Shown: in pieces, positions 5,766 to 57,941 of the stretch
Position numbering within the stretch: position 1 is the stretch's first letter
How the letters are laid out: every line of letters begins with the position of its first letter
From: Caballeronia sp. SBC1
GTDB lineage: Bacteria; Pseudomonadota; Gammaproteobacteria; Burkholderiales; Burkholderiaceae
DNA: 64,000 nt
Direction: 5' to 3'
Assembly (NCBI RefSeq): GCF_011493005.1
Contig: NZ_CP049159.1
Span: 372,001-436,000 of the forward strand
Translations under genes and position numbers: made by a program
Notes under the pieces: generated by a model
Database searches by the model: none
What the model was told of the DNA's origin: nothing
The model's input: the letters and a program-made list of their open reading frames with translations, nothing else

Positions 5766-6887
5766 TCAGAAACGATGACGCAGCCCCAATCGCACTTCAA
5801 TCTGGTTAGGCGTGCTCGAGCGCTGCAAGACCGGCGCGAGATCGGCGTATTGAGCGTCGCCGGCGGCGTGCATGTAAGTGGCCTGCAAGTAAGTATCGGT
5901 ACGTTTGGAGAGGAAGTAGTCCACGATTGCATCCACGTTGTGATACTTCGGCTTCTGCGACGTCGCCGAGACCTGGCCTTCCGTATAGCTGTACCCGGTG
6001 CCGAGTTGCAAGGACGGTGTCACGAAGTAGCTCGCCACGATTTCAAAAATATTGAACGAGACATGCCCGCTGATGTTTGCGCCGACCGTGGGGTCCAGTC
6101 CGAGGAATTTCGTGTTCGTATAGTCGGCGCTGATTTTTGCGTTGCCGAACGAATACTGCCCGCTGATACCGAACGACTGATACTTCGACGCAGCCAGCCC
6201 ATAGTTGCCATCGACCGTGTTCGTCGCTGTCCACACGCCTTCGGGCACAGCTTCAGACGGGTGATCGATCGATGTGTAAGCCGCTGCCAGTGCGACCGGG
6301 CCGCCCGCGTATTTCACGCCGACCGACTTGACCGCGTCGCGGTTGGTCGCGCCCGCCACATTCCCGAACCCGTACAACGCCGACGCCTGGATCCCCGAGA
6401 TGATCGGCGAGGTGTATCGGACAGCATTGTTGACGCGAAAGTCGATGCCGGTGTTGTCCAGATCGCCAGGGTGCGGGAACAGGATGCCCCAGTTGCCGTT
6501 CGCGGTGTACAGGCCCACGTAGTCGCCCATCATTTCGTTTTGACGGCCAAGCGTGACCGTTCCCAAGGTCTTGCTCGACAAGCCAACATAAGCGCCGCGG
6601 CCGAATTCGCGGCCTTGTTGGCCCAGCTTCCCCGAGTTGATGTCGAAGCCGTTCTCGAGCCGGAAGATCGCCGACAACCCCCCTCCCAGATCTTCCGCAC
6701 CCTGAAGCCCCCAGCGGCTGCCCTGCGAAATGCCGCTTTGCATCTGATAGGCTTTCGCGCCAAGCTGATTGTTCGAGAATGTCAGCCCTTCGTCGATGAT
6801 CCCGTACAGCGTCACGCTGCTTTGAGCGCACACAGAGCCACTCGCGCACAACGCGGCGAGCGATGCAGCAATAAGAGGTGTTTTCAC
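5766..6887 (-). CDS. Outer-membrane porin (Burkholderia-type, Gram-negative porin family)
   Basis: A 373-residue trimeric beta-barrel porin. It has a signal peptide (MKTPLIAASLAALCASGSVCAQ), the mature start SSVTLYGIIDEGLTFSNN, the loop-3 signature GREFGRGAYVGLSSKTLGTVTLGRQNE and a C-terminal LGLRHRF ending in Phe, as needed for outer-membrane insertion. It is the first gene of a minus-strand operon with the binding protein, SDR and DLH genes, which suggests it admits the island's substrate. Its promoter contains a copy of the shared TCTGAATTCAGA palindrome. Confidence 0.95.
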   Translation of the reverse strand: MKTPLIAASLAALCASGSVCAQSSVTLYGIIDEGLTFSNNQLGAKAYQMQSGISQGSRWGLQGAEDLGGGLSAIFRLENGFDINSGKLGQQGREFGRGAYVGLSSKTLGTVTLGRQNEMMGDYVGLYTANGNWGILFPHPGDLDNTGIDFRVNNAVRYTSPIISGIQASALYGFGNVAGATNRDAVKSVGVKYAGGPVALAAAYTSIDHPSEAVPEGVWTATNTVDGNYGLAASKYQSFGISGQYSFGNAKISADYTNTKFLGLDPTVGANISGHVSFNIFEIVASYFVTPSLQLGTGYSYTEGQVSATSQKPKYHNVDAIVDYFLSKRTDTYLQATYMHAAGDAQYADLAPVLQRSSTPNQIEVRLGLRHRF

Positions 6888-6943: not shown

Positions 6944-6985
6944 ACATTCTGAATTCAGATTATTTCAGCAAAAATTGGACGTCAA
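6944..6985 (-). promoter_or_regulatory. Porin-operon promoter with palindromic operator
   Basis: Read on the minus strand, TTGACG (6980-6985) and TAATCT (6957-6962) are separated by exactly 17 bp. The -10 runs into the perfect 12-bp palindrome TCTGAATTCAGA (6948-6959). The same arrangement, including the flanking ATAATCTGAATTCAGAATGT, recurs at 18713-18754 and 20215-20256. A bound repressor would block the -10 element. The predicted leader is about 60 bases. Confidence 0.75.
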
Positions 6986-7353
6986 GAACTTGCCAAAAAT
7001 GTTTTTTCGAGGAAAGTGCGGGAAAGACTGGGACGCTCAGTCAATGGATCGAGATTGTTCGCGCCGCTCGACGTGATCCGCATGAAACGGAATATGATGG
7101 ACGCGATGTTTGCTAGCCATCGGGTAACGTGATCGCGGCATGGATCCAATAAAAGTGCCGTCAGTAGGCCATCTTTGCACCTAAACAGCGCTTTTTTCGA
7201 TCAAGCGTCCTTGGCTACTCTGGGTGACACGGCCGGTTTTGAACTGTCGAAGGATACCGGCGAACATCGCTGCACCGCAGCGAACTTGTCCTGCAGGCTA
7301 CACGCTCCGGCACGATCGCTTTTCGCACCAGTACAACGCACTGCACATGATCC

Positions 7354-7382
7354 TTGACATGCGAATTTTCTGAATTCAGTAT
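7354..7382 (+). promoter_or_regulatory. LLM-monooxygenase promoter with palindromic operator
   Basis: TTGACA (7354-7359) is followed 17 bp later by CAGTAT (7377-7382). The spacer holds CTGAATTCAG (7370-7379), the core of the palindrome seen at three other promoters of the island, here partly overlapping the -10. It lies about 40 bases before the TTG start at 7419. Confidence 0.65.
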
Positions 7383-7418
7383 TCTTCAATAACCGCCCTC
7401 GATTCCAAGGAGCATGTC

Positions 7419-8525
7419 TTGACCGAACTCACCGCGAATCCAATGCGGCTCGCTCACGCGTTCAAGCTTGGCGTCTTTGCAGCAAACGCGGATCGTGGCC
7501 TCTCGTTCACGACCGTGCCCGAGCAATGGCGCGCGACGTGGGACGACGTGCAGCGCGCTGCCGTCGCGGCCGATCAAGGCGGCATGGACTTCTTCCTGCC
7601 CATCGCGCGATGGCGTGGTTTCAGCGGCACCACGCATGTTCGCGAGTGGTCATTCGAGACCTTCACGTTCGCCGCTGCGCTTGCGGCGGTGACGCGTCGC
7701 ATGGCGTTATTTTCGACGGTTCACGTGCCGCTCGTGCATCCGCTGTATGCGGCGAAAGCGCTGGCGACCATTGACCATGTCAGCCATGGCCGCGTGGGAC
7801 TGAATATTGTGTGCGGATGGAACCCGGATGAATTCGACATGTTCGGCGTGAAGCTGAACCCGGAGGCTTATAAGCAGGCGGCGGAATGGTCCGAGATCCT
7901 GATGAAGCTCTACACGTCGGCCGAGCCCTTTGATTTCGAGGGCGAGTTCTATCATCTGAAGGGGGCTATTTCACGGCCCGTGCCATTGCAGGTACCTCGT
8001 CCGGTGACGATGAACGCCGCGTTCGGTGCGCCGGGACGCGACTTCGCCGCGAAGTATTGCGATTATCTGTTCACCACGTTTTCGGAACTCGACGCCGGCC
8101 GCGAACACGTCGCGGATATTCGTGGCCGTGGGCAAGCGGCGGGACGCAACATTGGCGTGTACACGGTGGCACATGTGGTGTGTCGTGAAACCGGTCAGGA
8201 GGCGCAGGATTACTACCATCGCTATTCCGTGGAACACACCGACGAAGCCGCGCTCGACTATCACATGAAGCAGAAGAAGGGCTTCAGCAACAGTCACGAC
8301 GACCGGGCGTTCACCGAATATAGACAGCGTTTTGCAGCCGGGACCGGCAGCTTTCCACTAGTTGGTACCCCGGTTCATATAGTAGATCAACTCATCAAGA
8401 TCCACGAGAGCGGCTTTGCCGGTGCGGCCCTCACGTTCGTGAATTACGCCGATGAACTGCCCTTTTTCTGCGAGCAAGTCATGCCCCTGATGCGCGAAGC
8501 AGGTTTGCGCAACGACTCCGACTGA
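7419..8525 (+). CDS. LLM-class flavin-dependent monooxygenase
   Basis: Bacterial-luciferase-like monooxygenase, 368 residues, with typical blocks (FKLGVFAANADRGLSFTTVPE, TVHVPLVHPLYAAKALATIDHVSHGRVGLNIVCGWN, FGAPGRDFAAKY) resembling SfnG/SsuD/RutA relatives. These enzymes use FMNH2 and O2 to oxygenate sulfonates, sulfones, amides or N-heterocycles; the substrate here is unknown. The start is TTG at 7419, set by AAGGAG at 7407-7412; an ATG at 7414 in another frame stops after two codons. A flavin reductase at 21058 could supply reduced flavin. The CoA-ligase gene follows. Confidence 0.88.
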   Translation: MTELTANPMRLAHAFKLGVFAANADRGLSFTTVPEQWRATWDDVQRAAVAADQGGMDFFLPIARWRGFSGTTHVREWSFETFTFAAALAAVTRRMALFSTVHVPLVHPLYAAKALATIDHVSHGRVGLNIVCGWNPDEFDMFGVKLNPEAYKQAAEWSEILMKLYTSAEPFDFEGEFYHLKGAISRPVPLQVPRPVTMNAAFGAPGRDFAAKYCDYLFTTFSELDAGREHVADIRGRGQAAGRNIGVYTVAHVVCRETGQEAQDYYHRYSVEHTDEAALDYHMKQKKGFSNSHDDRAFTEYRQRFAAGTGSFPLVGTPVHIVDQLIKIHESGFAGAALTFVNYADELPFFCEQVMPLMREAGLRNDSD

Positions 8526-8629
8526 CTCTCTCGTTACCGGATTTATTTGAATCCAGCGCTTTGTCTGAACGGGCATGACACGCTCGTTCGGGAAACGCTC
8601 GTCCGAACGCTTTACATCACTCTCGCCCC

Positions 8630-10240
8630 ATGTCACTGACCTCCCCCTATCTCGCGTTCAAGCAAACTGCACTGCAGTATCCCGACAACGACTTTCTGTA
8701 TATTCCCGCCTCCGCTCGCAAGCATTACGCAACGCCCGAAGCACTCACGTTGAAATACGGCGAGACGCTGGCACGGATCGATGCACAGGTCGAACGCTAT
8801 CGCGATGCGGGTTATCGCGCGGGCATGCGCGTGGCGTTATTGCTCGAGAACCGGCCTGAGTTCTTCGTTCATTTCTTCGCACTCAATGCACTCGGCGTCA
8901 GCGTGGTTCCGCTCAACACCGACTCGCGTCCACATGAAATAGCGTACGTGGCTGAACACAGCGAGATCGTGCTGGCGATTGGGATTGATACGACGAAGCC
9001 GCTCCTGCTTGCCGCGCTCCAGGACAAAGTCCCCGTTGCCGATGCAAGCGCCTCTGTGTTGCCGAGGATCGAAGCCGCTGGCCGCATGGCGACCGCACCG
9101 TCCCTGGACGATGAATGCGCCATTCTTTACACGTCCGGGACCACGGGCAAGCCCAAAGGCTGCATTCTCGATAACCGCTACTTCTTGTCCATTGGCGAGC
9201 TTTACATTACGGAAGGCGGCTTGTGCGAAGTCCGTCCAGGCGCCGAGCGTTTGATTACACCGCTGCCGCTATTCCACATGAATGCGCTCGCCTGCTCCAC
9301 CATGGCCATGGTGTTGTCGGCCGGCTGCGTGATCCAGCTCGACCGGTTTCATCCACGAAGCTGGTGGGCCGATGTGGAGACAAGCGGCGCGACAATCGTC
9401 CACTATCTCGGCGTCATGCCTGCAATTTTGCTAGGCATGGAAGCCGATCAAGCCGTCACGCATTCGGTACGATTCGGCTACGGCGCGAACGTCGATCCGA
9501 AACATCAGCAGGTGTTTGAGCAGCGCTTCGGCTTTCCGCTCGTTGAAGGGTGGGCCATGACCGAAACCGGCGGTGCCCTGGTGATCGCATCGAGCCGCGA
9601 ACCACGCCACGCAGGCACGCGATGTTTCGGCCGGCCGCGCTCAGGCATGGAAGTGAAACTCGTCGATGCCGAGTGCAACGAAGTCGAGAGCGGCGTGCCG
9701 GGTCACATGCTGGTGCGCCGGGACGGACCCAATCCGCGTCTCGGCTTTTTCCGCGGCTATCTGAAAGACGATGCCGCAACCGAAGCCGCATGGCAGCACG
9801 GCTGGTTCCATACCGGCGATATCGTGCGCCGCGACGACGACGGCAGCCTTCATTTCGTCGACAGGCAGAAGAACATCATCCGTCGATCGGGGGAGAATAT
9901 CGCGGCACTGGAAGTGGAAGCGTGCCTGCTTGATCATCCCGATATACGCCAGACCGCCGTGATTGCCGCACCCGATTCTTTGCGCGATGAAGAAGTGATG
10001 GCCTGCGTGATCGTGTCGCCGGGAACGGTGCGCGATGAAACGACCGCACGGGCGTTGCAGGTGTGGTGCCTGGAACGCCTCGCGTATTACAAGGCGCCGG
10101 GTTATGTCGCGTTCGTGGACGCATTGCCGGTGACATCGACGAACAAGGTGCAGAAAACGCAGCTCGCCGCGTTCGGTGCAGACCCGTTGAATGCGCCGGA
10201 ATGCTTTGACTTGCGCTCGTTCAAGAAGCGGGTAAGTTAG
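8630..10240 (+). CDS. AMP-dependent acyl-CoA synthetase/ligase
   Basis: Activates a carboxylic acid to its CoA thioester through an acyl-adenylate. The 536-residue protein has the P-loop ILYTSGTTGKPKG at about 164-176, the FHTGDIVRRDDDG and DRQKNIIRRSGENIAALEVE motifs, and the C-terminal catalytic Lys region VTSTNKVQKTQL. It most resembles the CaiC/crotonobetaine-CoA-ligase-like branch. It lies 105 bp after the LLM gene and its end overlaps the convergent zinc-ribbon gene by four bases. With the thiolase-like protein nearby it suggests a CoA-dependent degradative branch. Confidence 0.9.
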   Translation: MSLTSPYLAFKQTALQYPDNDFLYIPASARKHYATPEALTLKYGETLARIDAQVERYRDAGYRAGMRVALLLENRPEFFVHFFALNALGVSVVPLNTDSRPHEIAYVAEHSEIVLAIGIDTTKPLLLAALQDKVPVADASASVLPRIEAAGRMATAPSLDDECAILYTSGTTGKPKGCILDNRYFLSIGELYITEGGLCEVRPGAERLITPLPLFHMNALACSTMAMVLSAGCVIQLDRFHPRSWWADVETSGATIVHYLGVMPAILLGMEADQAVTHSVRFGYGANVDPKHQQVFEQRFGFPLVEGWAMTETGGALVIASSREPRHAGTRCFGRPRSGMEVKLVDAECNEVESGVPGHMLVRRDGPNPRLGFFRGYLKDDAATEAAWQHGWFHTGDIVRRDDDGSLHFVDRQKNIIRRSGENIAALEVEACLLDHPDIRQTAVIAAPDSLRDEEVMACVIVSPGTVRDETTARALQVWCLERLAYYKAPGYVAFVDALPVTSTNKVQKTQLAAFGADPLNAPECFDLRSFKKRVS

Positions 10241-10533
10241 TCGCTGGAACCGACAATGGCGCCGTCGCTTTCGACACGAAGCGAGACGACGGCGCCCGGT
10301 GTGACCAAGAGCTCAAGCCGCGCAATGACACGTGGCCCAGCATGAGTCAGCACCGTTGCAATGTACGCAACATCCCCACCCGCCTTCCCCGCCCGATGAT
10401 GCAAGGCAGTAACGTCTTCAACGCTGCCTTTGCAAGCCTCCACCTCGACGAATTCATCGCACCCGCACGACGGGCACAGCAAGCGCCGGGGAAAATCGAC
10501 CTGAGCACACGCGACGCAGGCGAATACATTCAT
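10237..10533 (-). CDS. Zn-ribbon/OB-fold (DUF35) protein, partner of the thiolase-like protein
   Basis: A 98-residue protein with an N-terminal rubredoxin-like zinc ribbon (Cys6, Cys9, Cys20, Cys23) and an OB-fold (AYIATVLTHAGPRVIARLEL). DUF35 proteins form complexes with thiolase-like or lipid-transfer proteins in acyl-CoA metabolism. The start at 10533 overlaps the preceding stop as ATGA, so the pair is translationally coupled. Confidence 0.85.
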   Translation of the reverse strand: MNVFACVACAQVDFPRRLLCPSCGCDEFVEVEACKGSVEDVTALHHRAGKAGGDVAYIATVLTHAGPRVIARLELLVTPGAVVSLRVESDGAIVGSSD

Positions 10534-11699
10534 TGCGCGGCTCCCCGTTCGAGCACCACCGCATTCGCACACATGCCGTATCGATACTGCACCATGCCGT
10601 AACCGCTCACCGCCGCGAAACGCGCATCGTCAACCTGGCGCGCACCGGCTTCGTGACGCAACTGGATGACCGCTTCGACAAGCCCATGCATGCCCGCCGC
10701 AGCCCCCGCCTGTCCCGCCGACAATTGGCCGCCCGACGTATTCACCGGCAAACGACGTGGCGCAATTCGGTCGTGGATCAACGTGTGCAGGCTGGGCTGG
10801 TCATCGGCGAATCCGAGGTCAGTGAGTTGCGCGAGGATCATCGACGGATAGTCGTCGTAGACCGAGACGAGGTTCATATCGGCAGGCTGGAGGTTGGCGT
10901 CGCGCCAGAGGGAATCGCGTATGCTTGCAAGACCGGTGACAAGCCCGTCGCCATGCTGATGATCGACGTTATACGCCGCGCGCAACGCGCGAATGCGAAC
11001 CGGAGAACGCTTAGCACAACGATGGGTCGACGAGGTCAGCACAATTGCATTCGCTCCCGATACGACCGGCACGCAATCGAAACGACATAACGGTTCTGCT
11101 ACGAGCGGCGCAGCAAGATAGGTTTCGAGCGTCAACGGTTCACGGTAAACGGCCCGTGGATTCATCGACGCCCACTCGCGTTGCGCGATGCACAGCGCCG
11201 CGTAGTCCTCGCGCGTCAATTGCGAGGCGCGCATCTGGCGTTGCGTGAGCATCGCGAACACGGGGTTCGGGCCGCCCGTGTTCAACGGCCGCAGATGCGT
11301 CCGCGTGGTCACGTTGTAATTCTCGACGAGCGACGTAAAATCCGCCGCCTCGAAATGATCGCCGCTGACCAGGACGATCACGCTTGCGTCGCCGGCCTGG
11401 ATGGCACGCGCCGCATGCTGCAACAGGTTGATCCCACTTGCGCCGCCGTGACAGTCGTCCATGCACCAGCCCACGCGCAAACCGGCGCGCCACGCGAAGT
11501 CAATCGCGTGATCGGGTGGTAGGGTGAACGACGCAACGCCAAGACCGTCAACTTCATTTGCCGACAAATCGGCTTGCAAAAGCGCAGCCTTCAATGCCTG
11601 AGCGAGCAAACCTGCTGTGCTCGTGCCGGCCGCCGCATGGCGGGTGTAGGGCACTTCGACCGCGGCCACGATCGACACGCCTGAGAAGTCGTTCATCAC
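10530..11699 (-). CDS. Thiolase-like (lipid-transfer/SCP-x type) protein
   Basis: A 389-residue thiolase-fold protein of the SCP-x/acetyl-CoA acetyltransferase group (GVSIVAAVEVPYTRH, NTGGPNPVFAMLTQRQM, VSVYDDYPSMILAQLTDLGF). At the C-terminal active-site motif the usual SAGHP is SAGQA, so the general-base His appears to be Gln. This suggests an aldolase or other retro-Claisen-like role with its DUF35 partner rather than ordinary thiolysis. The gene starts 9 bases after the GntR stop. Confidence 0.8.
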   Translation of the reverse strand: MMNDFSGVSIVAAVEVPYTRHAAAGTSTAGLLAQALKAALLQADLSANEVDGLGVASFTLPPDHAIDFAWRAGLRVGWCMDDCHGGASGINLLQHAARAIQAGDASVIVLVSGDHFEAADFTSLVENYNVTTRTHLRPLNTGGPNPVFAMLTQRQMRASQLTREDYAALCIAQREWASMNPRAVYREPLTLETYLAAPLVAEPLCRFDCVPVVSGANAIVLTSSTHRCAKRSPVRIRALRAAYNVDHQHGDGLVTGLASIRDSLWRDANLQPADMNLVSVYDDYPSMILAQLTDLGFADDQPSLHTLIHDRIAPRRLPVNTSGGQLSAGQAGAAAGMHGLVEAVIQLRHEAGARQVDDARFAAVSGYGMVQYRYGMCANAVVLERGAAQ

Positions 11700-11708
11700 G
11701 TGTGCGCG

Positions 11709-12401
11709 TCAGACCGCATCGTCGTTGTTGAGAAAATACTGCTGTTCGGCGTCGTCGATAAAACCCTGGGTCGCCGAGCGCACCTTCATGGGATCGCGAT
11801 CCACGAAGCCTTTCAACAACACCTGCATGCCGTCGGTAATCAGCTTCATCGTGCCCGGTTTCGTCATGGTTCCATGACGCACCTGGCGCGTGTGATCAGC
11901 GAAACGCAGGATCGTGCCTTTCAAGCGCATGTTCAACACGCCTTCGAGCCAGATCGCGCGAAACTCGACATTGGCCTCGGTCATCAACGCGATGTCCTTG
12001 CGCTCGAACGCGCGACGGCATTTGCGATAAGCCGCGCCCATGCCGGCAAGCTGTTCATCCGTGAGCACGGCGGCCGCCGCAGCGGCTGCGCCCGGCTCGA
12101 GCATGCGGCGCACTTCGAAGATCTCGCGCACATCTTCGCCCGTCAGCACCGGCGTGACGAACCCGCGCGTGGTGCCAACCAGGTATCCCTCGTTCACGAG
12201 GCGCAGCAGCGCCTGGCGAACCGGCATGCGTGTGCACTCGAATTCCTCGGCGATCTCGTAGTCGAGCACGCGGTCATCGGGGCCGATCTGACCGCGCTGA
12301 AGGCGCCCTAATACTTCCTGATACACCGACTCCATCAATGTGGCCGGACGCAGCGCAGTCCGTCGCGGCTGCTTGATAACCGTCGGGTCGGCGGTTGCCA
12401 T
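11709..12401 (-). CDS. GntR-family regulator (FadR/VanR subfamily, FCD domain)
   Basis: An N-terminal winged helix (SVYQEVLGRLQRGQIGPDD, YEIAEEFECTRMPVRQALLRLVNEGYLVGT) is followed by an all-helical FCD ligand domain (REIFEVRRMLEPGAAAAAA, ANVEFRAIWLE). I place the start at the ATG at 12401, preceded by GGAGAG; upstream GTG and ATG codons extend the frame to 12437. FCD regulators usually bind AT-rich palindromes and are released by a carboxylate. It is the best candidate for the island's TCTGAATTCAGA sites (inference). It begins the thiolase-like/DUF35 operon. Confidence 0.88.
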   Translation of the reverse strand: MATADPTVIKQPRRTALRPATLMESVYQEVLGRLQRGQIGPDDRVLDYEIAEEFECTRMPVRQALLRLVNEGYLVGTTRGFVTPVLTGEDVREIFEVRRMLEPGAAAAAAAVLTDEQLAGMGAAYRKCRRAFERKDIALMTEANVEFRAIWLEGVLNMRLKGTILRFADHTRQVRHGTMTKPGTMKLITDGMQVLLKGFVDRDPMKVRSATQGFIDDAEQQYFLNNDDAV

Positions 12402-12533
12402 GGTTCTCTCCATTGTGTTGTTTCGCGTTTTCGTCACGACTCGTATGCCGCCGCGATGACGGCAGTGTCACGCTGTCAATAATTGTACCGGCTGGACTCC
12501 GGCCAGCCTCTCAAAGCTCGCCGCGCATGATAC

Positions 12534-14414
12534 TCATGCCGCTTCCTCCAGCGCGGCGGGCGGCCATGGCGTTCCCGCATGATCGCTCGGCACCGCGTCG
12601 ATCAGCGCGCGCGTGTACGGATGGCGCGGCGCAGCGAACACGTCCTCGGTCAACCCCTGCTCCACCACTTCGCCACGACGCATCACGAGCACGCGGCTGC
12701 ACAAGTAGCGCACCACGGACAAATCGTGCGAGATGAGCAGCAGTGCAATCTGCCGCTCGCGGCGCAACTCCAGCAGCAGATTCAGGATCTGCGCCTGGAC
12801 GGAAACATCGAGCCCTGACACGATTTCATCGGCGACAATCAATTGCGGCGATGCACATAGCGCCCGGCCAATATTCACGCGCTGCTTCTGACCGCCCGAC
12901 AACTGCGAGGGAAAGCGCGTGAGGGTATCGGCGGGAAGACCCACGTCGCGTTGCACCGACTGGGCGCGGGCCAGCCGCTGCTTTGCATCGAGCGGCGCCA
13001 CGCCGGCCGCTTCCAGCGCCTGCGTCAGGAGCCGCTCGACTGAACGGCGTGGATTCAGCGCCGACTGCGGATCCTGGAAAATAATCTGAACCTGCTCGCG
13101 CGCGCGCCGCACGCGCTCCGCGCTGCCACGCGTCAAGTCTTCGCCGCCGATCATCACCCGACCACCGGTCGGCTGTTCAATACCCATCAACAGCCGCGCC
13201 ACCGATGTCTTGCCACTGCCGCTTTCCCCCACGATCCCCACGAACTCCCCGGGGAAAATCTGCAGCGACAGCGGCTTGACAGCATGGAACGAAGTCTTGC
13301 GCTGCCCGAACACACCGCTGCGGCTCATGTACGTCAACGCTGCCTCGCGCAATTCCGCCACCGGTTGCGCGCCCATGACAGGGGCGGGCGGCAACAGCGG
13401 TGCCTGCGAATTGTCTATCAGCGGCGCGTGCTCGCAGGTCTCGCTGCACGCGACCCGATGGCCGTCGGGCGCCACGCGCGTCTGCAGCACAGCAGCGCAC
13501 GCAGCGCCAGCGCTGGGGCAACGCGGCGCGAAACGGCACCCGGCAATACCGGCCAGCGCGGACAAGCCCGGCATTTGCTGAGCGAGTACCGGCAGGCGGC
13601 GCCGGGGACCGGTCAGGTCCGGCGTCGCGTATTTCAACGCACGCGTGTACGGGTGGCGCGGTTCATCGAGGACATCGCGGGCCTGGCCGTATTCGACCAG
13701 ATCGCCTGCGTACATCACGGCGACGTCATCGCAGACATGAGCCGCCAGCCGCAGATCGTGGGTAATCAGCAGCACTGCGGTCGAATGCACGCGCTGCTGT
13801 TCGGCGAGCATGCGCATCACGCGGGTTTGCGTGATGACATCGAGCGCGGTCGTGGGTTCGTCGGCAATCAGCAGCGCCGGGTTGCTAGCGAAGGCCATCG
13901 CGATCAGCACGCGCTGGCATTGGCCGCCCGACAACTGATGCGGATAGCGCTTGAGCATGTCAGCGGGAACCGGCAGTTGCACCGACTCAAGGGCCTTGCG
14001 CGCAGTTTCCCAACGTTCGTTCGACGGAACGCCGATACGCGCAAGATGTTCATTGAAGGTATTCGCGATAGTCCACAGCGGGTTCAACGCGGTCAGCGGT
14101 TCCTGCGGGATGAAGGCGATTTTCCGGCCGAGCAGTGCGCGGCGTTTGACCTTCGACATGGTCAGCATGTCCTGTCCGTCAAAGTGCATGCTGCCGCTCG
14201 TCACCGTGAATCCGCCTGGCAAAAGGCCCGAGATCAGCCGCGCCAGCATGCTTTTTCCCGCACCCGATTCACCGACCACGCCCAACACGCGACCCCGTCC
14301 TATCGATAACGTCAACTCCCGCAGCGCCGCGACCGGCAAACCGCCCAGCTTCGCGGTTAGCGTCACGCTATCCAGTTGCAGCACCGTCTCAGTGATAGGT
14401 GTCGCCATCATCAT
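12534..14414 (-). CDS. Fused dual ATPase of a Dpp/Opp-type ABC transporter (DppD-DppF)
   Basis: A 626-residue protein with two complete nucleotide-binding domains. The first (about 1-330) has Walker A GESGAGKSM, LSGGQCQRV and an oligopeptide-ABC C-terminal Cys cluster (CRFAPRCPSAGAAC). The second (about 350-610) has GESGSGKTSV, FQDPQSALNPR and LSGGQKQRVN. In many systems DppD and DppF are separate genes. Its start overlaps the permease stop as ATGA. It powers uptake with the two permeases and very likely the binding protein at 4116. Confidence 0.92.
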   Translation of the reverse strand: MMMATPITETVLQLDSVTLTAKLGGLPVAALRELTLSIGRGRVLGVVGESGAGKSMLARLISGLLPGGFTVTSGSMHFDGQDMLTMSKVKRRALLGRKIAFIPQEPLTALNPLWTIANTFNEHLARIGVPSNERWETARKALESVQLPVPADMLKRYPHQLSGGQCQRVLIAMAFASNPALLIADEPTTALDVITQTRVMRMLAEQQRVHSTAVLLITHDLRLAAHVCDDVAVMYAGDLVEYGQARDVLDEPRHPYTRALKYATPDLTGPRRRLPVLAQQMPGLSALAGIAGCRFAPRCPSAGAACAAVLQTRVAPDGHRVACSETCEHAPLIDNSQAPLLPPAPVMGAQPVAELREAALTYMSRSGVFGQRKTSFHAVKPLSLQIFPGEFVGIVGESGSGKTSVARLLMGIEQPTGGRVMIGGEDLTRGSAERVRRAREQVQIIFQDPQSALNPRRSVERLLTQALEAAGVAPLDAKQRLARAQSVQRDVGLPADTLTRFPSQLSGGQKQRVNIGRALCASPQLIVADEIVSGLDVSVQAQILNLLLELRRERQIALLLISHDLSVVRYLCSRVLVMRRGEVVEQGLTEDVFAAPRHPYTRALIDAVPSDHAGTPWPPAALEEAA

Positions 14415-15403
14415 TCTCCCTTGCTGCGCATGCGGGGATCGAGCGCGACACGCAGGCCGTCGCCAAGAAGGTTACAGCCAAGCACCGTGATCACGATGGC
14501 AAGCACTGGGAACAAGAGCCCGGACAACGACTCATGCATGGACACGCGTGCGTCCGCGATCATCACGCCCCACGCGGTCACATTGGCCGGCACGCTCAAG
14601 CCGATGAAACTCAGCAGCGCCTCCACGGTGATCGCAACGCCCATTTCGAGCGAGAACAGCGTGATCATCAACGGCAGTGCGGCAGGCAATATTTCTCGCA
14701 GCATGATCCGCAGGTGCGTGAAGTTGAGCAGTTGCGCAGCGAGCACATAGTCACGCTGACGCACGACCATCACCTCGGAGCGGACGACGCGGCAAAAGCG
14801 CGTCCAGTCCACCAGCACGATCGACAAGATCACGTTTTCTATCCCCACGCCGAGACTCACCATCAGCACCAGCGACAGCACGACCGGCGGAAACGACATC
14901 CACAGGTCCACCAGATAACTGATGCTGCGATCGACCCAGCCACCGAAATAGCCGGCGAGAATCGCCAGCACGCTGCCGACAATGCCCGCGCCAAACGCGG
15001 CAATCACCGCGACCGTCAGCGCGATACGGCTGCCGTACAACAAGCGCGATAACACGTCGCGGCCGAGGCTATCCGTGCCGAGTGGAAACGCGGCGTCGCC
15101 GCCGGCCATCCATGCGGGCGGCGACAGCATGTGGAGCAGATCCTGATCGAGCGGGTTATGCGGCGCGAGCCACGGCGCGAACACGGCGCAGAACAACACG
15201 CCCAACACGATCGCGCCGCCGAGCCACAGGTTGACGGCAGGCTTGCGGCGCGCGCGAGCCGATTTGCCGATGACTGCCGCAACCGGCGCGGCGGCTTCCG
15301 GCGATGGGTCGACTGAAGTGGATTCGTGCAGCATGTCAGCCTTCATATCGTGCTTCGAACTGTGCTTGGAACTCAGCGGGGTCGTGGACATTTCGGTGCT
15401 CAT
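14411..15403 (-). CDS. Dpp/Opp-type ABC transporter permease (DppC-like)
   Basis: A 330-residue inner-membrane permease with an N-terminal cytoplasmic extension rich in Ser/His/Ala, a first membrane helix (LWLGGAIVLGVLFCAVFAPWLAP), the DppC landmark FPLGTDSLGRDVLSRLLYGSR and the EAA-like loop before LSFIGLSVPANVTAWGVMI. The start at 15403 overlaps the DppB-like stop as ATGA. Longer open frame upstream (to 15667) only mirrors the DppB gene and is discounted. Confidence 0.92.
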   Translation of the reverse strand: MSTEMSTTPLSSKHSSKHDMKADMLHESTSVDPSPEAAAPVAAVIGKSARARRKPAVNLWLGGAIVLGVLFCAVFAPWLAPHNPLDQDLLHMLSPPAWMAGGDAAFPLGTDSLGRDVLSRLLYGSRIALTVAVIAAFGAGIVGSVLAILAGYFGGWVDRSISYLVDLWMSFPPVVLSLVLMVSLGVGIENVILSIVLVDWTRFCRVVRSEVMVVRQRDYVLAAQLLNFTHLRIMLREILPAALPLMITLFSLEMGVAITVEALLSFIGLSVPANVTAWGVMIADARVSMHESLSGLLFPVLAIVITVLGCNLLGDGLRVALDPRMRSKGE

Positions 15404-16422
15404 GCTGTTTTGCGCAGGCGCGGATTCATGATCACGTACAGCGTGTCGACAATCGCGTTGATTACCAGCATCAACGCGCAGAACACGATCGCGATGCCCT
15501 GGATCAACAGCAGGTCGTTGTTGCGCACCGCCTGCACCATCAGGTTGCCCACGCCCGGAAACGAGAAGATCATCTCGACGAGCAACGCGCCGCCGAACAG
15601 GAAACCGAACTGCACGCCGATCATGGTCAACGCGGGTAACGCTGCGTTTTTCAACATGTGACGCCACAAGATCCGGCTCTCCGATACCCCGCGCAACCGC
15701 GCCACGCCCACATAAGATTCGTTGCGCTGATCGAGCAGACTCGAGCGCAGCACGCGAATCACTAGTGGGGCGAAGCCGAAAGCCAGCGCCAGCGACGGCA
15801 ACACGAGATGACTAGCCGCGCTCAGCCAGTCGCTGAATTCGCCCTTCACCAAAAAGTCGATCAGCAGGAAGCCGGTGAGATGCGGCATCGGAATGCCGTC
15901 GCCTACGCGACCGGAAAACGGCAGTACGGGCAAATACACGCCAAGCAGCGCGATCAACAGCAACGCCCACAGGAACGACGGCACGGACTGCATCAACACC
16001 ACAGCGAAGCCGACCGGCAACTCGCCGCGGCGATCGGTGACGGCGTAAGCAAACACGCCGCCCGGCACGCTGATGATCAGCGAGATGACGAGTGCCGTGA
16101 GACAGAGTTCGAGCGTTGCCGGCAACGTCGAGCCGATCAGCGTGGCGACCGGTTGCTGGAACGAAATCGATGCCCCCAGGTTGCCGTGCAGCGCATTCAC
16201 GAGCCAGATCAGGAACTGGGCAGGGATCGGTTTATCGAGGCCGAGTTGGTGGCGCAATAGAGCGGCATCCGCTGGCGTGGCGTTCGGCGGCAACATCATC
16301 GCGAGCGGATCGGCGGGGATGAGCCGCAGCACGACGAACACGATCAGCGAGAGCATCAGCAGCGTGGGGATCGCGGCCATGAGCCGGCGCGAAAGAACGG
16401 TCGAGATCAGCCGCAGCATCAT
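15400..16422 (-). CDS. Dpp/Opp-type ABC transporter permease (DppB-like)
   Basis: A 340-residue permease with an N-terminal helix (RLMAAIPTLLMLSLIVFVVLR), the family's early motif GLDKPIPAQFLIWLVNALHGNLG, several further helices and the ATPase-contact loop YVGVARLRGVSESRILWRHMLKNA. Its start overlaps the FAD-oxidase stop by four bases, so transport and oxidation genes are made from one message. Confidence 0.92.
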   Translation of the reverse strand: MMLRLISTVLSRRLMAAIPTLLMLSLIVFVVLRLIPADPLAMMLPPNATPADAALLRHQLGLDKPIPAQFLIWLVNALHGNLGASISFQQPVATLIGSTLPATLELCLTALVISLIISVPGGVFAYAVTDRRGELPVGFAVVLMQSVPSFLWALLLIALLGVYLPVLPFSGRVGDGIPMPHLTGFLLIDFLVKGEFSDWLSAASHLVLPSLALAFGFAPLVIRVLRSSLLDQRNESYVGVARLRGVSESRILWRHMLKNAALPALTMIGVQFGFLFGGALLVEMIFSFPGVGNLMVQAVRNNDLLLIQGIAIVFCALMLVINAIVDTLYVIMNPRLRKTA

Positions 16423-17855
16423 AGCGCTCCAGTGGGGCTCGACTCGCCAGGCGCAGGGTCAAGCAACACCTTGCCGGGGTTGAGCAGGTTTAAAGGATCG
16501 AGGGCGCACTTGATCGCGCGCATTGCGCCGATCGCGCCGGCGTCGCGCGTGTAGCCGAGATACGCGCGCTTCTTGCCGCCAACCCCATGTTCCGCGGACA
16601 CCGCGCCATGCCATTCGCGCGTGAGTTCGTAGACTGCGGCATCGACGTGTTCGTGGAGATCGGGCGGCGCGTTCTTCAGATGCGCGATGACGTGCAGGTT
16701 GCCGTCGCCGAGATGGCCGTACACCAGCGTGCGCATATCGGGCCAGCGCGCATGCAGCATGGCCTCGCATTGCTGTGCAACCTGACCGATATCGGCAATC
16801 GCAAAGCTGATGTCGAAGGCGATAAGACCCGGGAGAAGAATCGGGAATTCAGCGGGCGCGTCGCGAACGGCCCAGAAACGGGTGGCATCGGCGGCGGAAC
16901 TGGCAAGCGATGCGTTCTCGATCACGCCGGCATCGAGCATCTCGCCAAGCATGGCTTCGAAGTCTTCGGCTTGTCGCTCGGCATCGGAACCCATGCTTTC
17001 GAGCAGCACATAGAACGCATGCGTGGTGTCGAGCGGCGCGCGAACGGTCTTCACGTTCGCCAACACGTAGTCGTAGTAGCTGGGCCACATCACTTCGAAT
17101 GCCGAGACCCCGCCCGACATCCGCGCGCGGGCATGCTGCAGCAAACGCGTGACGGCCGCGAAGTCAGGCAGTCCGCACCAAGCCGTCGATACCCCCAACG
17201 CCTTCGGCGCCAGCCGCATGACGGCCCGCGTGATGACCGCGAGCGTGCCTTCGCTGCCGATCAGCAGGTTCTTCAGGTCATAGCCGCTGTTGTTCTTGAT
17301 CATCTTGTGGAGATCGGTGATCACGGTGCCGTCGGCGAGAACGGCTTCCAGACCCAGCACCTGGTCGCGTGCCATGCCGTATTTGATGACGCGATTTCCG
17401 CCCGCGTTCGTCGCGAGGTTGCCGCCGATCGTGCAGCTGCCACGCGCGCCGAGATCGAGGGGAAACATCATGCCGGCGGCATCGGCGGCTTCCTGCACGC
17501 GTTGCAGCACCACCCCTGCCTGCACGGTGATCGTGCCCGAGACGGTATCGACTTCTTCAATCGCGCTCATCCGTTCCAGGCTCAGCGCCACTTCACCGCC
17601 GAACAGGTTGGCGCCGCCCGCGAGGCCGGTCAACCCGCCCTGCGTGACGACTGCCTGCCGGTTGGCGTGGCAAAAGGCAAGCGCGCGCGATACCTCTTGC
17701 GTCGAACGCGGCCGGATCAACGCAACAGGTTCAGCTCCCGGCGTTCCGCTCCAGTCCTGTACCCGCCGGGTGCCAAGATCGGCGCGGGGCGTTACGACGT
17801 CGGCGCCCAGTTCGGCCACCAATCGTTCGACGAAGCTGCTTGAAGATGACGTCAT
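16419..17855 (-). CDS. FAD-linked oxidase (GlcD/D-lactate dehydrogenase family)
   Basis: About 478 residues with the PCMH FAD-binding motifs TQGGLTGLAGGANL, RGSCTIGGNLATNAGG and LLIGSEGTLAVIT, then the C-terminal FAD-oxidase domain with VYGHLGDGNLHVI and SAEHGVGGKKR. The family oxidises D-2-hydroxyacids such as D-lactate or glycolate, passing electrons to cytochrome or quinone. The start at 17855 (MTSSSS) sits just after the aldolase stop; upstream codons to 17903 overlap that gene. Its position between an aldolase and a transporter suggests it oxidises a hydroxyacid of the pathway. Confidence 0.9.
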   Translation of the reverse strand: MTSSSSSFVERLVAELGADVVTPRADLGTRRVQDWSGTPGAEPVALIRPRSTQEVSRALAFCHANRQAVVTQGGLTGLAGGANLFGGEVALSLERMSAIEEVDTVSGTITVQAGVVLQRVQEAADAAGMMFPLDLGARGSCTIGGNLATNAGGNRVIKYGMARDQVLGLEAVLADGTVITDLHKMIKNNSGYDLKNLLIGSEGTLAVITRAVMRLAPKALGVSTAWCGLPDFAAVTRLLQHARARMSGGVSAFEVMWPSYYDYVLANVKTVRAPLDTTHAFYVLLESMGSDAERQAEDFEAMLGEMLDAGVIENASLASSAADATRFWAVRDAPAEFPILLPGLIAFDISFAIADIGQVAQQCEAMLHARWPDMRTLVYGHLGDGNLHVIAHLKNAPPDLHEHVDAAVYELTREWHGAVSAEHGVGGKKRAYLGYTRDAGAIGAMRAIKCALDPLNLLNPGKVLLDPAPGESSPTGAL

Positions 17856-17862
17856 GGTCGGC

Positions 17863-18624
17863 TCAGTCTTTAAGCGCTGTGACGGCTTGTTCGAAGCCCG
17901 CACGCACCACTTCGATATCGCTTGCGGCCACGACGAAATCGAAGCCGAGCGCGCGGGCGGCCAGCGCGGCCTGCGTCGAGCCGGTGTAGATGCCGCATGG
18001 AAGGTTGTTCGCGCGGGCGGCTTTCAAAATTCGCGCGCAGTCCTCTTCGATCACGTCGGGCGCGACATCGCCTCGCGACAACGACAGGTCGCCGGTGCCG
18101 ATAAACAGGTAGCCCAGCCCTTCTACGGAAGCGATTGCTTCGACTTGCTCCACGCCCGCAACCGTCTCGATCATCACGCCAATCGAGATCCGCTCGCCGT
18201 CGTTTTTCATCGCTGCCATGCCGGCAATCAGCGGCCTGACACCGCCTGCGGAGCGCTGTCCAAAGGGCGGATATCGGCCGAAGGAAACGGCGCAGCGAGC
18301 TTCATCGGCGGATTCGATTAACGGAACCAGCGCAGACGCCGCGCCCGCATCCAGCGCTTCCGAAATCGCCTGAGCCGAGTTCTCGCCCACGCGCACGATC
18401 ACCGGAACCTGATGCCGCACCTGGCCGATCACCGCTTCGAGCGCGGTGCGTTCCCACAACCCATGCTGCCGGTCAATCACGATCAAATCCGGCGCGGCCG
18501 TCATGCCGATCTCCACGAGCGGCGTGCTGCCCATTGCAAACCACACGCAGGACAAAGCGCGTTTTTCCGCGAAGGCTGTTTGCATCGACTGGGGCACCGG
18601 GCGGACATCGGAAATTGTTTGCAT
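17863..18624 (-). CDS. HpcH/HpaI-family aldolase
   Basis: A metal-dependent class II pyruvate aldolase or citrate-lyase-like enzyme of about 253 residues. Visible blocks are APDLIVIDRQHGLWER (general-base His about 54), VPVIVRVGEN, AASALVPLIESADEARCAVSFGRYPPFGQRSAGG and VMIETVAGVEQ with the metal-binding Glu. Family members cleave 4-hydroxy-2-oxoacids to pyruvate plus an aldehyde. The start is uncertain: the ATG at 18624 lacks a clear ribosome site, while a TTG at 18690 has AAGG nearby and adds 22 residues. First gene of the aldolase-oxidase-ABC operon, behind a TCTGAATTCAGA promoter. Confidence 0.85.
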   Translation of the reverse strand: MQTISDVRPVPQSMQTAFAEKRALSCVWFAMGSTPLVEIGMTAAPDLIVIDRQHGLWERTALEAVIGQVRHQVPVIVRVGENSAQAISEALDAGAASALVPLIESADEARCAVSFGRYPPFGQRSAGGVRPLIAGMAAMKNDGERISIGVMIETVAGVEQVEAIASVEGLGYLFIGTGDLSLSRGDVAPDVIEEDCARILKAARANNLPCGIYTGSTQAALAARALGFDFVVAASDIEVVRAGFEQAVTALKD

Positions 18625-18712
18625 CGAATTAGCGGCGAGGACTTCTTCAGAAACGGGGTTGGAACGCGCGGGTCGAAACTCGATAATCAACTGACCTTAA
18701 ACCGCGTTTACG

Positions 18713-18754
18713 ACATTCTGAATTCAGATTATTGGGTTAAAAATTGGGCGTCAA
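18713..18754 (-). promoter_or_regulatory. Aldolase/ABC-operon promoter with palindromic operator
   Basis: On the minus strand TTGACG (18749-18754) and TAATCT (18726-18731) are 17 bp apart, and the palindrome TCTGAATTCAGA (18717-18728) overlaps the -10. The layout is the same, base for base in the core, as at 6944-6985 and 20215-20256. It would drive the aldolase, FAD oxidase and transporter genes. Confidence 0.75.
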
Positions 18755-18760
18755 GCGTTT

Positions 18761-19699
18761 TCAACCTCCGTCCTCCATGTTTAGCACGATCCGGCCGCGC
18801 GTGACCTGACCGGCTTCAAACTGGCGGTGAGCATCGGCGGCGGCAGCGAGTGGGAGCGTGGCCAATACGTTCGGTATGAGCACGCCTTGGGCGGCGAGTT
18901 GCGCGACTGCGTGGAGCGCTTCGGGCGCGTCAGAAATCAGCGCGCGGGTGATACTGACGCCGTATTTTTTAGCCTGGTTTTCAAACGGCGCCGCGCTCAG
19001 GTAGACGAGTTGACCACCCGTTTTCAGTACCTGATATGACCTCGCATGCGTCTCGCCGCCGATGAGATCGAACACAGCATCCATATCACGCAGCGAGCCG
19101 AAGTCATCGCGATCGTAGGCCACTGCCCGATGCGCGCCGAGCCCCAGCACATAGTCGATATTCTCCGCGCGGCAGGTCGTTGTCACGTTAAGCCCGAGAT
19201 GGCGCGCGAGCTGGATCATCTGGCCGCCGACCGCACCCGAGCCACCATGAATCAGCACGCTCATGCCTTCTGTAAGTATCGCGGTCCGACACATCGGGAT
19301 CCATGCGCTGACGCCGGGCTGAAGCAATGCAGCGGCTTGTGACGTCGAGAGGTTGGGCGGCGTTCTCACCACGCGTGCTGACGCACAAACGATCGCTTCG
19401 GCGTAGGTCCCGCCGCACGTCGGGTCGGCCGCAACGCACACCTCATCGCCTATGGAAAACCCTGCTACATCCTCTCCTATTTGATCGATGACGCCTACAC
19501 CGTCACGTCCCGGAATCTTCGGAAATGTCAGTGAGAAATGCGCTTGCAACGCACCGGAGCGCAGCTTTGCATCAATCGGCGATATCCCCGCGGCCTTCAG
19601 GCGAACACGGACTTCGCCCGGTCCCGCGACAGGGTCGTCGAGCGTGACAAGTTCGAGGACATCGGGCGAGCCGTATTGCGAATAGCGGATCGCTTTCAT
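18761..19699 (-). CDS. Zinc-type alcohol dehydrogenase-like / quinone oxidoreductase (MDR family)
   Basis: A 312-residue medium-chain dehydrogenase/reductase. It shows PGRDGVGVIDQIGEDV in the GroES-like domain and the nucleotide motif HGGSGAVGGQMIQLARHLG, but no obvious catalytic or structural zinc cysteines, which fits the NADPH:quinone reductase branch. Its start overlaps the SRPBCC stop as ATGA. It may reduce an enone or quinone intermediate. Confidence 0.88.
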   Translation of the reverse strand: MKAIRYSQYGSPDVLELVTLDDPVAGPGEVRVRLKAAGISPIDAKLRSGALQAHFSLTFPKIPGRDGVGVIDQIGEDVAGFSIGDEVCVAADPTCGGTYAEAIVCASARVVRTPPNLSTSQAAALLQPGVSAWIPMCRTAILTEGMSVLIHGGSGAVGGQMIQLARHLGLNVTTTCRAENIDYVLGLGAHRAVAYDRDDFGSLRDMDAVFDLIGGETHARSYQVLKTGGQLVYLSAAPFENQAKKYGVSITRALISDAPEALHAVAQLAAQGVLIPNVLATLPLAAAADAHRQFEAGQVTRGRIVLNMEDGG

Positions 19700-20148
19700 G
19701 CCGATGGAGCGTCGCTGTCACGACCCGATTCAAGCAACGCCCGGATCAGGAACATCTCGGTTTCGTGCGTCGAACAGATTTGCGCCCATGCGTCGTCGGA
19801 TTGCGTGGCGAGCCGCCACGTGAAAAGCGTGATGACCGCCGTGCCTGGCGGATGCCCCAAAACCGGTCCATCGAATACGCGAGCGGCGTTGCGGAATCGC
19901 AGGCCGTGTTCATTGCCACCGACTTCGTAATTGATTGTCAAAGCAACCGGATCCGCATGAATCCGGACCCAGGTTTCAACGCCCGTGAACACCGATTCAC
20001 CAACAAACGTCTGCGGCCCAACCGTTCTGCGCTTCCAGCTTCCTAGCGCCCACTTGCCTTGACGCTCCCCGTCGGCCATCAGCACAAATGCTCGTTGAGC
20101 GTCAGCCTGAACGCGAATGCTGCTGCTATGACAATGTGAATCGATCAC
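19696..20148 (-). CDS. SRPBCC (START-like) domain protein
   Basis: A 150-residue protein resembling the helix-grip SRPBCC fold: AQRAFVLMADGERQGKWALGSWKRR at the start of the domain, alternating beta strands (VETWVRIHADPVALTINYEVGG) and a long C-terminal helix (THETEMFLIRALLESG). Such domains bind hydrophobic ligands and are often cyclases, carriers or accessory proteins. First gene of a two-gene minus-strand operon, divergent from the EthD-like gene with the operator between. Confidence 0.7.
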   Translation of the reverse strand: MIDSHCHSSSIRVQADAQRAFVLMADGERQGKWALGSWKRRTVGPQTFVGESVFTGVETWVRIHADPVALTINYEVGGNEHGLRFRNAARVFDGPVLGHPPGTAVITLFTWRLATQSDDAWAQICSTHETEMFLIRALLESGRDSDAPSA

Positions 20149-20208
20149 CTTGGGTTTCCAGTCAGGGTTTCAAAAAGGGCGTGAACACAAGCATCACACT
20201 CAAAGCTT

Positions 20209-20256
20209 TTTACAACATTCTGAATTCAGATTATTATCGGAAACATTGTTCGTCAA
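20209..20256. promoter_or_regulatory. Divergent promoter pair sharing one palindromic operator
   Basis: Minus strand: TTGACG (20251-20256), 17 bp, TAATCT (20228-20233). Plus strand: TTTACA (20209-20214), 17 bp, TATTAT (20232-20237). The palindrome TCTGAATTCAGA (20219-20230) lies in the plus-strand spacer and overlaps the minus-strand -10, so a single bound protein could control both the SRPBCC/oxidoreductase operon and the EthD-like gene. Confidence 0.75.
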
Positions 20257-20303: not shown

Positions 20304-21005
20304 ATGGATGTCTGCCTCTTTCTGATCGCGACCGAGCGCGCCGCCACGACCAACGTGACTCAAACGATTGATGCCCACGGAATTCACGATCTTGCCGCGA
20401 CCTTCCCCGGCATCAAGCGCGCCGTGGTTCACGTGCCCGTGGAAGGCGGCGCGAACGACCCGTACCTTCACGCCGAGAAACCGCCGCGTTGCACACTGCA
20501 GTTTTATTTCGAGAGCGTTGATGCGCTCGAAAACGTCTTGCGCGAAGGCGGCAGCGCGCATGCGCTGTTGAATCTGACAGGGTTGAAAAAATGCGACCTG
20601 ACACAACAGGTCATGGCCGTGCGGCGGTACCCGGTGCAGGACCCTGACACGCAACCAGCCGCTGATACGCGTTGCACCTACCTGGTCAGCTATGAAGGTC
20701 CTGCTGACGATTTGAACGCGTGGCTAGGTCATTACATTGATAGCCATCCGCCGATCATGGCGCGCTTTCCCGGCATTCGGGAGATCGAGATCTACACGCG
20801 GATGGATTATCGCGGCGCGCTACCGGTGACACGCTCGAACGCGATGCAACGTAACAAGGTCGTCTTCGATTCGCCCGACGTGTTGAACGCCGCGCTGGCC
20901 TCGCCGGTGCGCCACGAGATGCGCGCCGACTTCAAGAACTTCCCGCCATTCAGCGGCGCGAACCTGCATTTCCCGATGATCAGCGTCGCGCGTGACTTCA
21001 GGTGA
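20304..21005 (+). CDS. EthD-like (dimeric alpha/beta-barrel) protein
   Basis: About 233 residues forming two ferredoxin-like halves: DVCLFLIATER with FPGIKRAVVHVPVEG, then TYLVSYEGP with LGHYIDSHPPIMARFPGIREIEIYTR. The HYIDSHPPIMARFPGI segment is the EthD-type signature. EthD-like proteins are accessory proteins or small enzymes of catabolic pathways. The ATG at 20304 is preceded by GGAAG; the open frame extends upstream across the operator, so the earlier start is rejected. Confidence 0.75.
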   Translation: MDVCLFLIATERAATTNVTQTIDAHGIHDLAATFPGIKRAVVHVPVEGGANDPYLHAEKPPRCTLQFYFESVDALENVLREGGSAHALLNLTGLKKCDLTQQVMAVRRYPVQDPDTQPAADTRCTYLVSYEGPADDLNAWLGHYIDSHPPIMARFPGIREIEIYTRMDYRGALPVTRSNAMQRNKVVFDSPDVLNAALASPVRHEMRADFKNFPPFSGANLHFPMISVARDFR

Positions 21006-21576: not shown

Positions 21577-21589
21577 GCTCTCTCCCAGC

Positions 21590-51878: not shown

Positions 51879-51981
51879 ATGTTTAACTCGCGGCGCGTGC
51901 GGGTCTTCCCTGCGCGCACCGCTTCAAATACCAGGACGGCCCCTCGCGTGCCGTTCGCTTAAAGCTTAGCGGAGCCCAAGC

Positions 51982-52878: not shown

Positions 52879-52898
52879 TGGAAACGAGATCAACCTCA

Positions 52899-56371: not shown

Positions 56372-56475
56372 ACCGCTAGCCGCAGACCCCAAGTATCGGC
56401 CGACCCGGCGGAGACACGCCCGGCGGCCACCGCTACCGCTGCAGAACGGCGTCATCAAAACAGGTGGAGACACGC

Positions 56476-57918: not shown

Positions 57919-57941
57919 CCCCGTATTCAGGAGAAGACCGG

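Follow-up and report, generated by a model that had tools for sequence, protein, structure and literature searches.

A palindrome at four promoter regions as the probable operator of a GntR regulator in a Caballeronia degradation island

A short palindrome with the core CTGAATTCAG stands at four promoter regions of a degradation island in Caballeronia sp. SBC1, which is a Caballeronia-like soil bacterium. The stretch of DNA analysed here (the window, 64,000 nucleotides) covers 372-436 kb of a 734-kb contig, in a genome of 8,848,153 bp on five contigs. Comparison with related genomes points, with a probability of about 0.85, to the palindrome being the operator of an FCD-type GntR regulator encoded in the island at 11709-12401(-), which would repress five operons until an inducer releases it. 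An earlier note on this DNA had read the sites as marks of a single regulon; that reading is supported at the level of sequence, and GntR can be named as the likely regulator.

The palindrome and the promoters it overlaps

The 10-mer core occurs four times in the window, starting at 6949, 7370, 18718 and 20220, against a mean of 0.06 and a maximum of 1 in 100 dinucleotide shuffles. It contains the EcoRI site GAATTC, a possible confounder. Exact copies of the 12-mer TCTGAATTCAGA start at 6948, 18717 and 20219, and a one-mismatch form at 7369; a rescan returned every position that the earlier note had given for the 12-mer and, at 7370, for the core. The palindrome in its wider form is about AWWCTGAATTCAGWWT, and the syntenic stretch of plasmid pSBC2-4 (Caballeronia sp. 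SBC2) likewise holds four core sites. Genome-wide, the core is found in 15 places against 3 for the reversed control, with four of the 15 inside these 13.4 kb of island DNA, and an order-1 model trained on the window predicts 7.3 copies of the 10-mer and 0.35 of the 12-mer per genome. The earlier note held that random occurrence across the genome would speak against a regulon; the exact 12-mer is instead confined to the island (three of three copies), and the whole-genome scan gave no additional exact 12-mer that would extend the regulon beyond it. Nine one-mismatch 12-mers lie elsewhere in the genome, and the 11 core copies outside the island match at most 15 positions of the 21-base block described below. 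The core copies at C2:724151 and C2:724163 form a 12-bp tandem repeat.

The four operators are arranged as follows.

Operator 1, 6948..6959: TCTGAATTCAGA; -10 TAATCT at 6957-6962(-), -35 TTGACG at 6980-6985(-); before the genes for porin, solute-binding protein (SBP), SDR oxidoreductase and dienelactone-hydrolase-family protein (DLH)
Operator 2, 7369..7380: TCTGAATTCAGT, core exact; plus-strand promoter TTGACA 7354-7359, N17, CAGTAT 7377-7382; before the LLM monooxygenase and CoA ligase genes
Operator 3, 18717..18728: TCTGAATTCAGA; -10 at 18726-18731(-), -35 at 18749-18754(-); before HpcH aldolase, FAD-linked oxidase (FADox), ABC importer, GntR and thiolase-like genes
Operator 4, 20219..20230: TCTGAATTCAGA; divergent region, minus-strand promoter with -10 at 20228-20233 and -35 at 20251-20256; side of the small protein and oxidoreductase genes
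Operator 4, plus-strand promoter, 20209-20237(+): TTTACA 20209-20214, N17, TATTAT 20232-20237, exact; EthD side

The minus-strand promoters of operators 1, 3 and 4 all read TTGACG-N17-TAATCT, exactly as had been claimed, and in each the operator begins within the -10 box. The plus-strand TTTACA and TATTAT boxes that the earlier note had placed 17 bp apart around the site at 20219 are also exact. Its block of 20 identical bases around the minus-strand sites is indeed identical in all three promoters and proves one base longer, at 21 (AATAATCTGAATTCAGAATGT). Operator 2 overlaps both the spacer and the -10 box of its promoter.

Four promoter alignments, of 12, 9, 11 and 10 sequences, carry the comparison to related genomes. 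The sequences were chosen for having the core, leaving out locus L096 with its drifted sites, so the invariance of the core in them is by construction. The -35 box is invariant too, and most of the other DNA is divergent. It is unchanged in 11 aligned sequences at operator 1 and in 10 at operator 2, including sites before the CoA ligase where the LLM gene is missing (at L091, L092 and L098 the same operator lies directly before the ligase gene); CTTGACG is unchanged in 12 at operator 3, and the minus-strand -35 box in nine at operator 4. The plus-strand -35 box of operator 4 is less conserved, the TTTACA of the window being TTTGCA in six of eight aligned relatives.

Twenty-one identical bases at three promoters of a single island could also be the mark of recent duplication, with one promoter segment copied as a mobile repeat and no common regulator behind it. 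In the promoter alignments, though, similarity is limited to the boxes and the operator, and the sites precede differing genes, occur on other contigs and track one regulator across genera, which leaves this explanation scarcely credible.

Regulator and palindrome in related genomes

Two separate searches of 299 genomes of the family, one for the GntR protein (E<=1e-40) and one for the 14-mer TCTGAATTCAGAAT, found GntR orthologues in 16 genomes and the 14-mer in 17. Both are present in 13 (Fisher p 6.8e-17, a value that overstates the case for the repressor because related genomes are not independent), and the reversed 14-mer is found in 0/299. In G017 and G048, orthologues of the porin, SBP/EthD or HpcH/aminotransferase genes are preceded by operators on contigs that do not carry gntR; the link between GntR and motif is therefore more than neighbourhood.

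Could the reader of the palindrome instead be the island's LysR protein (22880-23797), as an activator of the operons? Its gene belongs to the island; five genomes (G297, G195, G015, G052 and G053) have a relative at 60% identity or above some 10-14 kb away from gntR, and three more (G048, G072 and G239) have one at 42-44% near gntR. With the line for a LysR relative at 60% identity or more, chosen by eye after the LysR results were known, such relatives occur in 34/299 genomes, and the 14-mer is present in 10/10 genomes with both regulators, 3/6 with GntR only, 1/24 with LysR only and 3/259 with neither. The 10 genomes with both count for LysR; the LysR-only and GntR-only classes differ in favour of GntR (p 0.018, on small numbers). 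An operator that covers the -10 box fits a repressor rather than LysR activation. LysR sites are usually of the T-N11-A kind, and the palindrome is, unlike these, uninterrupted. LysR is thus a quite improbable reader of the palindrome. The earlier note had named failure of every island regulator to bind as one thing that would refute its regulon; at the sequence level, the motif tracks GntR far better than LysR. Since LysR relatives lie near gntR in several genomes, LysR is often part of a wider cluster, and it may control other genes of that cluster.

When a species-level genome collection was scanned, GntR relatives turned up at 34 loci, up to 20 kb each and 664 kb in total, from Caballeronia, Paraburkholderia, Robbsia, Pandoraea, Herbaspirillum, Cupriavidus, Alcaligenes, Eoetvoesiella and other genera; several are close relatives of one another, and they overlap in species with an earlier set of 15 loci, so the two sets are not independent (alignment A1 leaves out one of 15 loci, L053). 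The core occurs 61 times in these 664 kb, against 0 for the reversed control and 10 for the best of 59 permuted-half palindromes, and is exact at 28 of the 34 loci. It is retained about 2.8 kb from gntR even at two Alcaligenes loci where GntR identity is 47%. Only one-mismatch cores are present at L096, L104, L116, L117 and L122, and none at L118; because one-mismatch 10-mers are common, these are informative only at matching promoters (L096, and L104 and L117 at gntR). Chance was rejected as the origin of the palindrome copies on the shuffles, the genome counts and the permuted-palindrome controls.

With gene starts taken as the longest frames, 15 of the 34 loci (L102-L105, L107-L115, L117 and L119) have a TGAATTCA site at most 260 bp upstream of the gntR frame, with an exact core in 11. 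At other loci the site stands before hpcH, porin, aminotransferase, MFS transporter, M20 hydrolase, EthD or ABC genes. This is the pattern that an autoregulated local repressor would produce, and the recurrence of the site at orthologous promoters is what a scan of related genomes, proposed in the earlier note as a check, was to look for. Promoter geometry is shared as well: across the window, pSBC2-4 and the 34 named loci, a -35 box matching TTGACA in at least five of six positions stands at a fixed offset from 43 core sites out of 69, against 26/4000 random and 53/4000 A+T-matched places. No enzyme is shared more often than the HpcH aldolase, present at 27/34 loci. As a separate observation, the uncultured Caballeronia 'Acor symbiont' (L096) has a GntR of 93% identity with sites CTAAATTCAG or ATGAATTCAG, a natural test of operator tolerance.

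The recognition helix largely goes with the palindrome. In alignment A2 (20 sequences, the window and 4 plasmid loci together with 15 of the 34 named ones), all 13 sequences from exact-core loci carry LDYE before the recognition helix and CTRMPVRQ within it, down to 44-47% identity (L120, L121 and L123), although this comparison is biased, to the detriment of the argument, because the locus scan itself selected on LDYE/CTRMPVRQ peptides. Whole-protein or profile searches gave seven further loci (L125-L128 and L134-L136). Six of them, L126-L128 and L134-L136, have other helices and no TGAATTCA within 20-29 kb; the seventh, L125 (VDSK, LSRMPVRQ), has sites GTGAATTCAC and GTGAATTCAG. An order-wide search at E<=1e-40 found a match in 5/399 genomes, three of them beyond the family, and those three have a different helix and no TGAATTCA. 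At L134, in another family, a GntR relative of 39% identity accompanies indolepyruvate oxidoreductase, CoA ligase, cyclase and thiolase genes with no palindrome. This locus shares enzymes and lacks both helix and site; the palindrome therefore tracks the regulator rather than the enzymes.

Several observations weigh against GntR as the repressor that reads the palindrome. The 14-mer is missing from three of the 16 genomes with GntR: G104 and G177 have the core in exact form, and G248 has it next to gntR with one mismatch; conversely, four of the 17 motif genomes lack GntR at E<=1e-40 (G029, G099, G105 and G201). In G029, G099 and G201, no gene of the query set was matched in the 3 kb around the copy, and these copies are probably due to chance. 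L116 and L122 carry the CTRMPVRQ helix with one-mismatch cores only, and L118, with a GntR of 56% identity and the helix CTRTTVRQ, has no TGAATTCA site. Several of the sites upstream of gntR sit between divergent hpcH and gntR genes and are closer to hpcH. Promoter geometry is also less uniform than the total suggests: without the Caballeronia-type loci and the window, the fixed -35 box is present in 18/35 sites and missing in 17/35, and none of the 10 core sites at L110, L111, L112, L113, L114, L115 and L119 has it, nor do the hpcH-gntR divergons of several Paraburkholderia. In G105 (L074/L083), two TCTGAATTCAGAAT copies 44 bp apart (G105:C3:382176 and 382220) have only a weak CoA-ligase match nearby; they are probably something other than chance.

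The ten sites without the fixed -35 box, together with the pairs of exact cores between hpcH and gntR at L108, L112, L113 and L119, speak for a GntR that binds the palindrome and activates, or a palindrome shared by two regulators. Activators rarely bind over the -10 box or the spacer, where all four sites of the window lie, and -35 boxes near consensus (TTGACG/TTGACA) count against activation; this alternative is unlikely. GntR binding, repression rather than activation, and release by an inducer are what we infer.

On the repressor reading, a GntR dimer would occupy each operator when substrate is absent, over the -10 box or over the -10 box and spacer, and would block RNA polymerase at the porin-SBP-SDR-DLH, LLM-CoA ligase, HpcH-FADox-ABC-GntR-thiolase, small protein-oxidoreductase and EthD transcription units. 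A small organic acid of the pathway would bind the FCD domain and release GntR, so that uptake and degradation would rise jointly. With a single repressor at all sites, the five gene sets would therefore be inducible together by one nutrient, and GntR, whose gene lies within the operon of operator 3, would be autoregulated. A best guess at the inducer, and no more, is a 4-hydroxy-2-oxo acid, perhaps close to the substrate of the HpcH aldolase. Substrates considered from gene content are those of RutA/NTA-type monooxygenases and monatin-like and kynurenine-like compounds.

The regulator among known GntR systems

The protein at 11709-12401(-) has an N-terminal winged helix-turn-helix (PF00392, 2.2e-09) and an FCD domain (PF07729, 5.9e-16), both above the Pfam cut-off, and its C-terminal half is helical in the AlphaFold model (mean pLDDT 82.6), which matches the FCD-GntR structures McbR, AlkR (VanR) and Atu1419. 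McbR/YncC of E. coli has biofilm genes as targets, other than those controlled here, and shares 25% identity with the window GntR. Its structure (PDB 4P9F) is the best PDB match both by sequence (E 2.9e-13) and by fold (Foldseek 2.9e-09, TMq 0.73). A D-2-hydroxyglutarate dehydrogenase is under the control of DhdR, and the FAD oxidase of the proposed regulon is related to this enzyme. The DhdR structures (PDB 9jpj and 9vkn) match the FCD fold of the GntR model at about 18-20% identity, and L2HG is named as inducer in the title of a PDB entry.

A close parallel in mode of action is with Atu1419 of Agrobacterium fabrum. This FCD-GntR repressor of the VanR group acts on a catabolic region by way of identical 10-mer palindromes, which overlap the -10 boxes of atu1418 and atu1420 and are also present at its own operon (PMC7797058). 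The window sites likewise overlap the -10 boxes of the promoters they would regulate, and Atu1419 is a structural match to the model of the window GntR. The best structural matches include proteins assigned to the VanR group (McbR, 3IHU and Atu1419; PMC7797058), a group that lacks the extra helix of the FadR group. Atu1419 differs in its operator (ATGTATACAT, with GT...AC, versus CTGAATTCAG here), in acting on hydroxycinnamate genes, and in its 18-19% identity to the window GntR in structural alignments.

The operator itself is the less orthodox element. The FadR-subfamily consensus is TKGT/ACMA, within A/T-rich palindromes and in divergons with shared or double sites that often have the regulator gene on one side (PMC4494728). 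The palindrome shares these general features; the GT...AC consensus is absent, its place being taken by TG-AATT-CA with GA...TC, and this too counts against the GntR assignment. NanR and BioR are named as exceptions to the consensus (PMC4494728), and because such exceptions exist the missing GT/AC does not remove the regulator from the FadR subfamily. It is somewhat better than an even bet, from these comparisons, that the GntR clade forms an operator class of its own, in which LDYE, ahead of the recognition helix, and CTRMPVRQ, in it, read CTGAATTCAG (GA...TC) and not GT...AC. The pairing would be kept across what we take, from the genera, to be the Burkholderiaceae, Oxalobacteraceae and Alcaligenaceae, while the controlled enzymes would be exchanged: in Caballeronia the islands are of the LLM/CoA-ligase/ABC type, and in Paraburkholderia they carry aminotransferase, amino-acid permease and indolepyruvate-oxidoreductase genes. 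HpcH is the enzyme most often in common.

In the sources covered, in which subscription journals are thinly represented and bioRxiv is not included, the regulon is undescribed, and the part of the literature searched for Caballeronia, GntR and aldolase together yielded only an inositol survey. The regulon is new, the type of regulator known and the operator unusual. A degradation island becomes a regulon that can be put to the test, in which a single named regulator is set beside four mapped operators and five operons, and TCTGAATTCAGAAT together with the CTRMPVRQ helix is a marker by which this regulon is found elsewhere in the Burkholderiales. If the predicted binding is true, it supplies a helix-operator pair outside the GT...AC rule that would be useful for predicting GntR specificity. 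Once an inducer is found the system would be a ready sensor, and the shared aldolase narrows the substrate.

Genes of the five operons and their surroundings

The genes under the palindrome are listed below; pSBC2-4, syntenic with the region, provides independent gene calls.

2096..3334(-): dienelactone-hydrolase-family protein with SnoaL-like tail (DLH 1.2e-47; tail match under the Pfam cut-off)
3355..4071(-): SDR oxidoreductase (adh_short 1.2e-34)
4116..5669(-): family 5 solute-binding protein of the ABC importer (SBP_bac_5 6.7e-66)
5766..6887(-): porin (Porin_4 6e-50)
7443..8525(+): LLM flavin monooxygenase, nearest RutA and SfnG (Bac_luciferase 1.8e-53)
8630..10240(+): AMP-forming CoA ligase (AMP-binding 3.3e-55)
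10530..11696(-): thiolase-like protein (Thiolase_C_1 4.7e-25)
11709..12401(-): GntR/FCD regulator, 230 aa, operon of operator 3 (start codon after pSBC2-4)
12534..16422(-): ABC importer, with fused double ATPase 12534-14414 and permeases 14411-15391 and 15400-16422 (Pfam, pSBC2-4 annotation)
16419..17855(-): FAD-linked oxidase, D-2-hydroxyglutarate-dehydrogenase-like (Pfam, PDB matches)
17863..18585(-): HpcH/HpaI class II aldolase (HpcH_HpaI 5.4e-21)
18761..19699(-): Zn-type/quinone oxidoreductase (ADH_zinc_N_2 2.8e-17)
19696..20148(-): small protein, SRPBCC in the earlier note ('hypothetical protein' in pSBC2-4)
20304..21005(+): EthD-family protein (pSBC2-4 counterpart annotated 'EthD family reductase')

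Spacing and strand suggest that the genes of each operon form one transcript. The LLM protein matches the RutA structure 5wan at 1.9e-34, with the SfnG and RutA models under their own cut-offs. The FAD oxidase matches 3pm9, a putative oxidoreductase, at 2e-95 and 6lpn, a D-2-hydroxyglutarate dehydrogenase, at 2e-87. In the HpcH aldolase the H/R/E/D residues align in register with those of solved class II aldolases, where we take them to be catalytic. Pfam and the annotated pSBC2-4 bear out the gene labels of the earlier note apart from two, SRPBCC and EthD. A Pfam search of the small protein labelled SRPBCC gave no match at E<=1e-3. The EthD label stands on the pSBC2-4 annotation; the window protein has no Pfam match of its own, and a related protein at L098 gives an EthD match just under the cut-off.

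Does the whole island act as one unit? The core scan found no copy at the amidase-SDR genes (131-2040), the HpaC/acyl-CoA-DH-like oxygenase genes (21058-22783) or lysR (22880-23797), and the available evidence supports a unit made up of the five operons and not the entire island. On pSBC2-4 a Rieske ring-hydroxylating dioxygenase (L124 27241-28726) lies beyond the amidase; it would fall to the left of the SBC1 window if gene order is kept.

Beyond lysR, an open reading frame of 784 aa at 24169-26523(+) has an eCIS core domain (Pfam 8.1e-29), and its probable pSBC2-4 counterpart, annotated as a DUF4157 protein, adjoins lysR. At 33362-34177(+), a Mut7-C RNase domain is joined to a Ub-Mut7C ubiquitin-like domain. 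A second catabolic island at 50637-60073(+) encodes a porin, DHDPS, Fe-ADH, an SSF transporter, a BNR protein and a DeoR regulator, along with a 768-aa fusion of a sugar-binding/nucleotide-binding kinase-like protein (SBD_N/NBD_C) to PdxA.

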